Below, in pieces: positions 7,194 through 10,212 of a stretch of 10,212 nt of DNA (within the stretch, counting starts at the first letter, position 1; each line of letters begins with the position of its first letter). Below the pieces are notes generated by a model, which was given only the letters and a program-made list of their open reading frames with translations, made no database searches and had not been told where the DNA came from. The position numbers were made by a program, and so were the translations under genes. The stretch comes from Bacteroidaceae bacterium (GTDB lineage: Bacteria; Bacteroidota; Bacteroidia; Bacteroidales; Bacteroidaceae): positions 1 to 10,212 of the forward strand of contig JAGCWG010000021.1 in NCBI GenBank assembly GCA_017961965.1, in the 5' to 3' direction.

Positions 7194-8324
7194 ATGAAAA
7201 AGTATATTTTGCTTCTCTTGTGCCTTACATTCCCTATTATCATGAGGGCACAGTATTCAGTATCATCTCCTGACAAGAGGGTGTGGGTAAGCCTCAAGAC
7301 CAAATGGCGACGCAACCTCGATACTAAGATGGTGTCTGCCGATGGCATTCGTATGCAGGTGACGCATGATGGACATAGCATTGTAAAAGATAAGGAGGTT
7401 GGACTCGTGGTCAAGTCAGAGGGGCATCGCTACTCCTTTGCAAAATCAGATATTGATGACTTTACGATTACCAAAGAGCCTTCTTATCAGAGTGGCGACT
7501 TCGATGTGCGTTACCTTGGTCTTCAGGGCAAATACAACCGTATGACGCTACGTTCCGTGACAGGAATAACGCTTGACATCCTTGTGTTTAACAATGGTGT
7601 CACTTATCGTTATACCATTGCAGGATTCCCTTCTGATTACAAGATACTTGAGGTATGTAACACATTCCCGGATGACCGTCCAAATGCCATACTCGGAACG
7701 TTTACGGGAGACAAGGCTCTGCCTTGGCGCTTCCTGCTCTTTGACGGAACAAGCGAATGGACGGACGAATGGAACACAACATACCCGTCTAACAAGATAG
7801 TGTCGTGGAAGGATGCCCTCTCGTCCGTGTCTCTCGGTTTCACTACCAATTGGTATGCAGGTGACAGATGGGGAGAGGTGAGCCAGTCCAATGGAGTGTA
7901 TGCAGACTTTACGTACAAGTATTTGTACGCAGGACTTAGCTACACACCTTGTCACGAACTTCTCTACATATACTACAACTATGACTTTGATCCATTCCTC
8001 AACAATATTGGTGGTATTCACACGTGGGATATGACAGGACGACTGGGCTTCAACCTACCTATCCAGTATGGCTTTGACGTGTGGAGCTTCAGTCCGTATG
8101 CCACAGCCACATACCTCGCTCTTCTCCAGCATGGCAAGGTGCATCCTGGCTATAGTGAGGTCGCAAACAAGAAGCATTATCTCCTCGGCTTAGGTCTCAA
8201 GGTACAATACATGATGCGTGAACGCTTCTCCCTTGGTGTAGCCTATGAATACCAGATGTTCACAGGTAGCAAAGAACCAAAGGGCCGTAACTCCCTCACC
8301 TTTACTTTAGGTTATGGTTTTTAG
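7194..8324 (+). CDS. Outer-membrane protein with GH97 N-terminal-like domain and C-terminal beta-barrel
   Basis: The product has 376 residues with a signal peptide (1-19, ending IIMRAQ). Residues about 22-155 resemble the N-terminal beta-sandwich of GH97 alpha-glucosidases such as SusB: SSPDKRVWVSL at the start, VGLVVK at 69-74, and LDILVFNNGVTYRYTI at 127-142, where the FN-x-G-x-x-YR block is the most characteristic part. The catalytic GH97 barrel is absent. From about 205 the sequence shows alternating hydrophobic and aromatic strands (for example GVYADFTYKYLYAGLSY, HELLYIYYNYDF), ends in LTFTLGYGF with a terminal Phe, and looks like a small outer-membrane beta-barrel. By inference the sandwich is exposed on one side of the outer membrane and could bind a glycan; no enzymatic activity is expected. 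It has its own promoter and no operon partner. A diverged copy of its 3' end lies downstream. Confidence 0.75.
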   Translation: MKKYILLLLCLTFPIIMRAQYSVSSPDKRVWVSLKTKWRRNLDTKMVSADGIRMQVTHDGHSIVKDKEVGLVVKSEGHRYSFAKSDIDDFTITKEPSYQSGDFDVRYLGLQGKYNRMTLRSVTGITLDILVFNNGVTYRYTIAGFPSDYKILEVCNTFPDDRPNAILGTFTGDKALPWRFLLFDGTSEWTDEWNTTYPSNKIVSWKDALSSVSLGFTTNWYAGDRWGEVSQSNGVYADFTYKYLYAGLSYTPCHELLYIYYNYDFDPFLNNIGGIHTWDMTGRLGFNLPIQYGFDVWSFSPYATATYLALLQHGKVHPGYSEVANKKHYLLGLGLKVQYMMRERFSLGVAYEYQMFTGSKEPKGRNSLTFTLGYGF

Positions 8325-8352
8325 CGAACGTCATCTTCGATACGAGATTTCT

Positions 8353-8592: not shown

Positions 8593-8634
8593 TATTTTGT
8601 CATTGCTTGTATTTGCCAATCGCTCAATGGATGA

Positions 8635-8766
8635 GGTCTCAAGGTGCAATATATGATGCGTGAACGCTTCTCCCTTGGCGCCGCCTACGAATACCAGATG
8701 TTCACGGGTAGCAAGGAAGCAAAGGGACGAAACACACTTATCTTCACTTTAGGTTACGGACTCTAA
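8635..8766 (+). pseudogene. 3' remnant of a diverged paralogue of the beta-barrel gene
   Basis: These 43 codons plus stop encode GLKVQYMMRERFSLGAAYEY and onward to FTLGYGL, matching the last 43 residues of the protein at 7194-8324 with five replacements (V to A, P to A, S to T, T to I, F to L). About 20 of 129 bases differ and most differences are synonymous, so the copy diverged as a selected coding gene before being cut down; it is not a recent duplication. A TGA stands in frame at 8632-8634 directly before the match, and no start codon or upstream homologous sequence is seen. It is therefore a truncated gene end. Confidence 0.85.
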
Positions 8767-8806
8767 CGTTTTTTCTGTTCTGTTGAACTTTTTTGGACAA
8801 ATATGC

Positions 8807-8867: not shown

Positions 8868-9413
8868 ATGACTATGATTACAAAAATTCTTAACAATGAC
8901 TATGTTTTAAACAAGATAATGTCTTTCCTTGGTGCTGTCCTTGTTGTTCTCGGATTCACAAGTTGCGGAGACGAAGAAGAAAAAGAATGGGATCCTAAAA
9001 GGGCCGTATTGCTTTATGGTGTTCCTACTGCTGGTTATGCTGTGAAGGGGGAGGTCGCAGGTCTTGTGACTGATTCTATCGGAAATCCAATCGAAAATAT
9101 CAATGTTCGTGTTGGTCTCGTAAAACAAGATGGAACACTTGGGATCGCAACTAGTAGTACTGGAGTTACAGGTCAAGACGGAAAATATAAAAGTTTTGTC
9201 TTGTATTTTTATGGCATGCCTGAAGGTACGGATGTGGCTGGCTTTAAGAACTATTTCCCTTCATATATGGCTATTGCTACTGATAGTACAGGCGTGTATG
9301 AGAATGATACATTATATATAGATTATGCGTTGGATAGGTTGGATGGAGATGAACATTTTAACTATACTTCAACTTCTACCGCTGATTTTGTGCTCCATAA
9401 GAAAAAGAATTAA
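8868..9413 (+). CDS. Putative lipoprotein of the radical-SAM/lipoprotein type, copy 1
   Basis: From the ATG at 8868 the product has 181 residues (an in-frame ATG at 8874 is also possible). A longer frame from TTG at 8793 is rejected because the promoter lies inside it. Residues 1-32 are a signal sequence ending GFTSC with the lipid-attachment cysteine at 33, followed by the acidic GDEEEKE. Then come LYGVPT (49-54), a short carboxypeptidase-regulatory-like strand pattern (GLVTDSIGNPIENINVRV, 65-82), and TGVYENDTLYIDYALDRLDG (141-160) leading to STADFVLHKKK. The LYG-x-P-x(n)-G-x-P-x-x-x-x-x-V layout and the closing lysines resemble what I recall as the Bacteroidota radical-SAM-associated putative lipoprotein family; this was not searched. 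Its modification and role are unknown. It pairs with the related gene at 9709, and the expected radical SAM enzyme is not in the window. Confidence 0.75.
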   Translation: MTMITKILNNDYVLNKIMSFLGAVLVVLGFTSCGDEEEKEWDPKRAVLLYGVPTAGYAVKGEVAGLVTDSIGNPIENINVRVGLVKQDGTLGIATSSTGVTGQDGKYKSFVLYFYGMPEGTDVAGFKNYFPSYMAIATDSTGVYENDTLYIDYALDRLDGDEHFNYTSTSTADFVLHKKKN

Positions 9414-9443
9414 TTAACTATGGTTTTACAAGAGTCTTTCTAA

Positions 9444-9648
9444 CCACGAATTACACTAATTTGCACGAAAATGTAATTCAAGACTTTTTATATTACACGA
9501 AGAATTGCTCGTGCAATTACGAATATCACGAATCTTTTTAGCTCGTCATAATCCGGATGGCATTCGTGTTATTCGCAGACAACACGAGTTGTTTTAGTGT
9601 AATAAAAATAACGGACTTGAAGTTCGTGAAAATTCGTGTAATTGGTGG
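9444..9648. repeat. 205-bp foldback (MITE-like) element between the lipoprotein genes
   Basis: The terminal 26 bases (9444-9469, starting ccacgaattacacta) match the reverse complement of 9623-9648 at 23 of 26 positions. The similarity continues inward: tattacacgaagaattgctcgtg on the left corresponds, with changes, to the reverse complement of about 9572-9605. CGAATAtCACGAAT (9519-9532) matches the complement of about 9563-9576. Almost the whole element is thus an imperfect palindrome. A nested hairpin, aattgc (9503-9508) with gcaatt (9513-9518), lies in the left arm. No transposase and no clear target-site duplication were seen. It fills most of the 295-bp gap between the two genes and may also end the upstream transcript. 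Confidence 0.7.
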
Positions 9649-9708
9649 GTGAAAACGTCGTGCATGCGAATAATTGTAAAATTTCAACAATAAACACATT
9701 ATATAATT

Positions 9709-10200
9709 ATGACAAAAAAACTTAACAACTATCTGTTGTCAAAACTGACACGTGTTTTTGGATGCCTGCTCGCTTTGATGGGCGTTACTGGTTGTGATTC
9801 TGACGAACCACCTTTGTACGGAATACCTACTCCTACAGCTGAGATTCTAAGTGAGACGACAGGTCTTATCCTTAATACCGAAGGCGAACCTGTGCCTAAT
9901 GTGCAAGTAGTGTCTTTCCCTACTGATGTTAATTATTATAATGTTAGAGGCGTGGAAAATGTGGCATCTGACGGTAATGGCAAGTACTTCTCAAACTCAC
10001 GTATCGAGAAGTATGGAAATAGTAGCGTAAGCGAGACATTCAAACAGCTTCAGGTGATTGCTTCCGACAGGTCGGGTGTGTATGAGAATGATACCATGTA
10101 CGTTGACATTCAGTTGGACAGCTTGGCTACGGATAAGTTCAAGGCTACTGCTACGGCTAACTTCACACTTCATAAGAAAGCAAGCGAAGCAAAATACTGA
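9709..10200 (+). CDS. Putative lipoprotein of the radical-SAM/lipoprotein type, copy 2
   Basis: The product has 163 residues from the ATG at 9709. The signal peptide ends in VTGC with the lipid-attachment cysteine at residue 29, followed by DSDEPP. LYGIPT (36-41), GEPVPNVQVV (59-68), SGVYENDTMYVDIQLDSL (122-139) and TATANFTLHKK (147-157) line up in order with copy 1, so the two are clear paralogues. The middle regions differ in length and sequence: copy 2 has VENVASDGNGKYF in place of the longer loop of copy 1. No good TAnnTTTG promoter was found between the genes (taaaatttc at about 9677-9685 is only a near miss), so the gene may depend on the copy 1 promoter through the foldback element. 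A partner enzyme might follow beyond the right edge. Confidence 0.75.
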   Translation: MTKKLNNYLLSKLTRVFGCLLALMGVTGCDSDEPPLYGIPTPTAEILSETTGLILNTEGEPVPNVQVVSFPTDVNYYNVRGVENVASDGNGKYFSNSRIEKYGNSSVSETFKQLQVIASDRSGVYENDTMYVDIQLDSLATDKFKATATANFTLHKKASEAKY

Positions 10201-10212
10201 TATCTGAAAGAA

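Follow-up and report, generated by a model that had tools for sequence, protein, structure and literature searches.

Two lipoprotein genes at the end of the window

The window (the whole 10,212-nucleotide stretch analysed here) closes with two lipoprotein genes in tandem and the first codons of a third gene (Table 1). The initial annotation had described tandem paralogous lipoproteins and had likened them to a radical-SAM-associated lipoprotein family. Both statements were borne out: the two open reading frames are present, the motifs listed for them can be read directly, the products are 31% identical (82.4 bits, E = 4e-25 in a single comparison), and an HMM search leads to TIGR04134, with lipoprotein 1 over the curated cut-off of 39.8 bits (54.7 bits) and lipoprotein 2 under it (31.2 bits). 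The orthologue of lipoprotein 2 in a close relative, L001, scores over the cut-off (43.7 bits).

Lipoprotein 1 is laid out as a signal peptide, a lipobox, a flexible YG segment and a beta-rich domain. In its structure model, residues 28-54, including YGVP, have a pLDDT below 50, and strands appear from residue 57 on. The tyrosine of LYGVP lies in this low-scoring segment, 17 residues past the lipobox cysteine; in lipoprotein 2, the tyrosine of LYGIP follows the lipobox cysteine by 8 residues. The two proteins end in FVLHKK and FTLHKK, respectively. In an 11-row alignment of both window proteins and nine homologues, conservation is higher at the ends than in the middle, as had been noted from the sequence, with few conserved columns at positions 80-99 and 107-130 of lipoprotein 1. 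The differing middles of the two paralogues would agree with exposure to changing partners. Pfam matches to the lipoproteins all fell under their cut-offs (e.g., CarboxypepD_reg), and Foldseek with the lipoprotein 1 model returned mostly intradiol dioxygenases at TM 0.3-0.4, to which we attach no functional weight.

Table 1 Coordinates of the features discussed in the text. Positions are those of the window unless a locus is named.
Feature	Position	Strand	Basis
Lipoprotein 1, TIGR04134 family, 181 aa from ATG	8868..9413	+	ORF and HMM
Lipobox Cys codon, lipoprotein 1 (FTSC)	8964..8966	+	direct sequence reading
LYGVP, proposed XYG site (X = Leu), lipoprotein 1	9012..9026	+	sequence, alignment, model, motif count
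GVYENDT, lipoprotein 1, residues 142-148, in the predicted folded domain	9291..9311	+	sequence, model
Lipoprotein 2, 163 aa, paralogue of lipoprotein 1	9709..10200	+	ORF and pairwise alignment
Lipobox Cys codon, lipoprotein 2 (VTGC)	9793..9795	+	direct sequence reading
LYGIP, proposed XYG site, lipoprotein 2	9814..9828	+	sequence, alignment, motif count
GVYENDT, lipoprotein 2	10075..10095	+	direct sequence reading
5' end of the TIGR04133 radical SAM/SPASM gene (xISER...)	10197..10212	+	match to L001 and L002
Full TIGR04133 gene, L001	L001:11068-12168		506.8 bits (cut-off 425)
Full TIGR04133 gene, L002	L002:8039-9139		510.2 bits (cut-off 425)

A TIGR04133 gene directly downstream in relatives

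A contig scan with an alignment of the lipoprotein family yielded two loci from 51 candidate stretches, both in rumen Bacteroidaceae MAGs. Over the two lipoprotein genes, L001 (sheep) shares 95% and 93% DNA identity with the window and L002 (buffalo) 77% and 82%. Both carry lipoprotein 1, lipoprotein 2 and a TIGR04133 gene in this order on one strand. The last 16 bases of the window match the start of this TIGR04133 gene and overlap the stop of lipoprotein 2. An off-window radical SAM/SPASM gene had been predicted, and it is found directly downstream in L001 and L002, the window ending inside its start; the flank beyond the window is thus taken from these relatives, the window itself showing only the first codons of the enzyme. 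At positions 10197-10199, the window reads CTG where L001 and L002 read ATG. In these two loci, the ATG of the enzyme gene overlaps or abuts the lipoprotein stop, and the same single change makes lipoprotein 2 one residue longer in the window than in L001.

The surroundings vary among the three loci. About 270 bases that separate the lipoprotein genes in the window (9414-9686) are unmatched in L001 and L002, whose two lipoprotein genes almost touch; this reflects either an insertion in the lineage of the window or a loss in that of L001 and L002. Upstream, the gene at 7194-8324 recurs in part: its 3' end (8187-8326) is found again, as an 84% copy, at positions 8629-8768, the leftover of a partial duplication. 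The N-terminal half of this ORF matches GH97_N (28.6 bits, cut-off 25.3) and its C-terminal half matches an outer-membrane barrel under the cut-off; in L002, the ORF list shows nothing similar between the nitroreductase gene and the lipoprotein genes. The nitroreductase side upstream is common to the window and L002, not to L001, whose upstream neighbour (L001:8272-9849) is by inspection an RNase E/G-like gene. A pyruvate-kinase-like downstream side is common to L001 and L002. Rfam models run over the window gave nothing above gathering scores.

The TIGR04133 enzyme

Pfam assigns Radical_SAM and SPASM domains to the TIGR04133 enzyme. We aligned 144 of the 148 enzymes from the loci described below, four being excluded as short or broken. 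The CxxxCxxC motif is present in 143 of these 144 enzymes from relatives, and the cysteines at positions 257, 275, 293, 333, 336 and 342 (L001 numbering) are kept in 143-144 of them. The structure model has a pLDDT of 90.5, and the folds closest to it are the peptide-modifying SuiB, 5why/5wgg (which we take to be CteB), the anaerobic sulfatase maturase anSME and ChlB. Identity to SuiB, 5why/5wgg, SkfB, ChlB and anSME is 15-19% in the compared structure rows. The alignment of the model with SuiB begins at SuiB residue 100; the first hundred SuiB residues, the RRE part of that protein, have no counterpart.

The enzyme locus yielded no RRE partner, either with PqqD (PF05402) in five genomes or among the ORFs of L001 and L002, a search that shorter or divergent RREs escape and whose ORF lists start at 80 aa (L001) and 90 aa (L002). 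All five genomes have PqqD matches, which lie on a contig other than that of the enzyme or, in G137, about 700 kb from it.

By HMM, the enzymes of L001 and L002 stay far below the cut-off of TIGR04103, the model of PlpX from the splicease PlpXY discussed below (127.8 and 129.6 bits against 725); we take the PlpX family IPR026482 to be this same model. The score is tied with those of TIGR04053 and the heme b synthase AhbD. Among 28 diverse TIGR04133 members, 27 match TIGR04103 at E ≤ 1e-20 and equally match nine other models, TIGR04053 and AhbD among them. Because of this tie, we do not place the enzyme nearest PlpX by sequence. A search for PlpX-like proteins at E ≤ 1e-100 found none in a draw of 198 Bacteroidota genomes and none in 14 control genomes either, so it shows no absence; none is named among the 60 listed of 313 plasmid records.

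YGxP is the element shared by TIGR04133 loci

We compared 148 radical SAM loci, comprising 146 further places plus L001 and L002, with 11 lower-scoring places of a 393-genome draw omitted. The partners differ greatly in type: some have a domain like that of the window proteins, and others are short, or long and rich in Glu and Arg, or carry CYGTP directly at the lipobox cysteine. A few in which no signal was found repeat YGPP or a similar motif three or four times. The element shared by these loci is YGxP and not the lipoprotein domain; YG.P is kept where the folded domain is absent.

Counted in same-strand ORFs of at least 50 aa within 1.2 kb of the enzyme, YG.P occurs at 124 of the 148 loci; the loci are not fully independent because near-duplicates are present (e.g., L092 and L093), and some of the 124 are chance occurrences, L112 and L114 being counted solely by virtue of a long YGRP-containing ORF. 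As controls, ORFs 2.5 kb or more from the enzyme, a set in which more residues were searched than in the near one, contain it at 13 of the 148 loci, and the opposite strand does so at 12. Among 8000 patterns of the form ab.c, YG.P is both the commonest and the most enriched, the next by near-minus-far difference reaching 43 vs 6, and at the same 148 loci HG.P, FG.P, YA.P and GY.P show no comparable excess near the enzyme. If YG.P must follow a lipobox within 75 residues, 109 of the 148 loci retain a match near the enzyme and none does so in the far ORFs, where a lipobox precedes YG.P twice, by 250 and 398 residues.

Of the loci lacking YG.P, 24 in all, seven (L101, L188, L189, L202, L209, L218 and L224) have XYG minus the proline at a comparable position of an adjacent secreted-type ORF, and in another (L214) the contig end cuts into a CYGTPQD partner. 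Neither YG.P nor a matching XYG neighbour is present at 16 of the 148 loci, which are orphans, contig ends or weak relatives. Seven TIGR04133-like genes without a nearby YG partner (L104, L105, L107, L108, L117, L118 and L120) each adjoin a gene whose product resembles, by inspection, a CBS-domain/GldE-type membrane protein. At L090:5905-7548 (G077), a radical SAM enzyme and a YGTP lipoprotein occupy one open frame of 548 aa; we do not use it as Rosetta-stone support because its lipobox would be internal and an assembly error is possible.

The initial annotation had singled out a different segment, GVYENDT, as a recognition or modification site. Leaving the signal region aside, it is indeed the longest block identical in the two window proteins. 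However, it occurs near the enzyme at 2 of 148 loci and in the looser form G.Y..D[ST] at 15 of 148, it falls within the folded part of the lipoprotein 1 model, and it is missing from the many TIGR04133 partners that lack the folded domain. We therefore give this site hardly any credence. Of the original interpretation, then, the lipoprotein family and the off-window radical SAM enzyme stand, whereas the proposed site is not supported. The YGxP that accompanies the enzyme had been mentioned there in passing, as LYG-(V/I)-PT.

A crude lipobox rule picks out 144 YG.P ORFs. In 26 of them the tyrosine directly follows the cysteine, and in 77 it is 6-15 residues further on. The rule is false for 6 of the 144 (motif at least 385 residues past the supposed cysteine) and also put some true lipoproteins under "other". 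YG.P is present two to three times in 18 of 149 secreted-type ORFs. Three hydrophilic partners adjacent to the radical SAM gene, with no lipobox found (L111, L115 and L192), have a (V/I)YGP-type motif at least three times. Across 170 sites, the tyrosine is preceded by Glu in 45 and by Cys in 26, and the residue after the glycine is Thr in 69, Ser in 26, Val in 25, Pro in 10 and Gly in 4, with a proline next at most sites. On a FastTree tree of the enzymes (126 labelled loci), the class of the pre-tyrosine residue changes 24 times against a shuffled mean of 66, which fits joint inheritance of the operons and is no proof of recognition.

Distribution of the system and loss of the tyrosine

An even draw from the order comprised 393 genomes, of which 86 have TIGR04133 over the cut-off (93 at E ≤ 1e-90) and 58 have TIGR04134 over the cut-off. 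By list comparison, 54 of these 58 are among the 93 with the enzyme, and a closer look added a 55th (G395), whose TIGR04133 gene had been scored in two pieces that reach 510 bits together. In a draw of 151 genomes of the family, 44 have TIGR04133 and 21 TIGR04134 over the cut-offs, with both in 19 of the 21. TIGR04133 was found in 2 of 296 genomes drawn from the phylum, G001 being one of them, and the system therefore looks largely limited to this order. Beyond these draws, two Bacteroidales plasmid records with TIGR04133 encode partner lipoproteins with EYGTP and EYGSP, and plasmid pTS1 of Treponema saccharophilum (L230:3613-5089) carries a CYGMP lipoprotein together with TIGR04133. The pTS1 pair adjoins a gene for an Mpi-type DNA invertase, pointing to transfer beyond Bacteroidota.

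Across the two draws, 78 genomes have TIGR04134 over the cut-off (21 and 58, with G001 common to both). In four of them (G080, G455, G517 and G377), a loose search found no TIGR04133 over the cut-off, the best match being 54.7 bits; assembly gaps could conceal an enzyme gene in such genomes, and a further one (G005, with the lipoprotein and no enzyme found) was left out of the count, its flanks reading N. At the motif position, these genomes read EHGTP (G080), GNGSP (G455), DNKTP (G517) and AQYGAI (G377), so that the tyrosine is absent in three of the four. In contrast, within genomes that have a TIGR04133-type match (E ≤ 1e-90), YG is kept in 13 of 14 family members whose contig is not that of the enzyme, the exception being a Tyr-less paralogue in a genome that has the enzyme (G280:C146). 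The difference gives a Fisher p of 0.019 on counts tallied by eye, and the independent loss events are few because G455, G517, G377 and G280 share one six-genome family.

These data bear on the possibility that YGxP is a structural or export feature that travels with the operon, with the enzyme modifying the lipoproteins elsewhere or not modifying lipoproteins at all. Operons are inherited as blocks, linkage alone could produce the 24 vs 66 label changes on the tree, and G377 retains AQYG without the enzyme. Yet the motif is common to unlike partners, the signal-less hydrophilic repeat proteins included, it persists in family members of the same genomes that are not on the contig of the enzyme gene, and its tyrosine is mostly missing from the enzyme-less genomes. 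We regard such passive linkage as improbable. From these sequence patterns, the TIGR04133 enzyme very probably acts at YG.

Proposed tyramine excision and its alternatives

A radical SAM reaction at such a site has been described for the splicease PlpXY of Pleurocapsa. PlpXY comprises a radical SAM/SPASM enzyme and an RRE protein and excises tyramine (C8H9NO, -135.0757 Da) at XYG, and formation of the ketoamide does not require the leader (PMC10533398). The natural sites are MYG and LYG, splice tags carry YGLP, several sites per precursor are possible and the enzyme works in whole proteins (PMC10533398, PMC11002830, PMC10373908). Among the FtsZ constructs listed in the first of these papers, two with LYGLP were not accepted and two with GYGLP were (PMC10533398).

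The sequences LLYGVP and PPLYGIP of the window lipoproteins share the form of the PlpXY site, and we therefore propose splicing. Like PlpXY, the system pairs a radical SAM enzyme that has a SPASM domain with a substrate that has an XYG site. Unlike PlpX, the TIGR04133 enzyme lies outside TIGR04103 by HMM (127.8 vs 725 bits), and no RRE was found at its locus in the searches described above. The window proteins have lipoprotein signal peptides, in contrast to the Nif11-like or nitrile-hydratase-like leaders of PlpXY precursors, and the substrates are predicted surface lipoproteins, unlike spliceotides. The residue before the tyrosine is often Glu or Cys at TIGR04133 loci, unlike the Met or Leu reported for PlpXY.

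Our main reading, to which we assign a probability of roughly 0.55, is that the locus is a protein-modification operon in which the TIGR04133 enzyme acts at X-Tyr-Gly-x-Pro and tyramine is excised. The two lipoprecursors would be made together with the enzyme, which would work in the cytosol, presumably ahead of Sec export and lipidation. Its target would be the flexible X-Tyr-Gly-x-Pro past the lipobox cysteine (LYGVP and LYGIP), where a piece of the tyrosine would be cut out of the protein backbone. The mature lipoprotein would then hold a reactive ketoamide beside its lipid anchor, with the variable folded domain outside. The ketoamide might, with low confidence, serve as a reversible covalent trap, e.g., for proteases; a surface ketoamide is a possible protease trap because beta-residues from this chemistry are reported in a review to confer protease inhibition (PMC10373908).

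Taken alone, tyramine excision as the chemistry of the enzyme is argued by analogy and is close to an even bet. Many radical SAM/SPASM maturases make crosslinks. The enzyme could thus act at YGxP by forming a C-C or ether crosslink from the tyrosine side chain (of the cyclophane kind, within Y-G-x) or a Tyr-Pro link, or by epimerisation. SuiB and the thioether-forming 5why/5wgg are among the solved structures nearest in fold, and the predominance of Thr, Ser and Val after the glycine, with proline next at most sites, would suit such a reaction. However, Gly, which lacks a beta carbon, and Pro also follow YG, and the form of the site matches that of the splice sites MYG and LYG published for PlpXY. 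A thioether to a cysteine is not favoured, since by eye no cysteine recurs beside the motif except that of the lipobox. On balance, we consider these other chemistries less likely and retain excision as the preferred reading.

A wider version of the excision proposal is more tentative, and we would put it below even odds. Tyramine splicing by TIGR04133 enzymes may be widespread on surface lipoproteins of Bacteroidales and of at least one Treponema plasmid, placing a ketoamide by the anchor. For lipoproteins of the CYGTP class, homologation would then affect the lipidated cysteine itself, giving an acylated N-terminal beta-amino acid. The carriers under this reading include rumen MAGs, Phocaeicola and Parabacteroides plasmid records, and many further genomes.

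Relation to earlier work and significance

NCBIfam already holds the two families as TIGR04134 (lipo_with_rSAM) and TIGR04133 (rSAM_w_lipo), the same families by HMM with the same adjacency. Both models are typed hypoth_equivalog, and their names and descriptions carry no mechanism. Beyond these models, our analysis adds YGxP as the shared element, the finding that partners are often unlike the window lipoproteins, and a proposed mechanism. Among the papers searched, we found none with TIGR04134, none with radical SAM together with TIGR04133, and none linking TIGR04133 lipoproteins to splicing, although an earlier publication may exist. The families were known without a function and the splicease chemistry was known in other bacteria; the link between them may be new.

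From a biological perspective, TIGR04133 and TIGR04134 are without a functional name although the enzyme is common (86 of the 393 genomes in the order draw). With a defined site and a defined mass change, the function of TIGR04133 becomes testable. If the proposal is true, the YG site could serve as a short splice tag for protein labelling, and backbone splicing would be a regular part of the maturation of surface lipoproteins in Bacteroidales.
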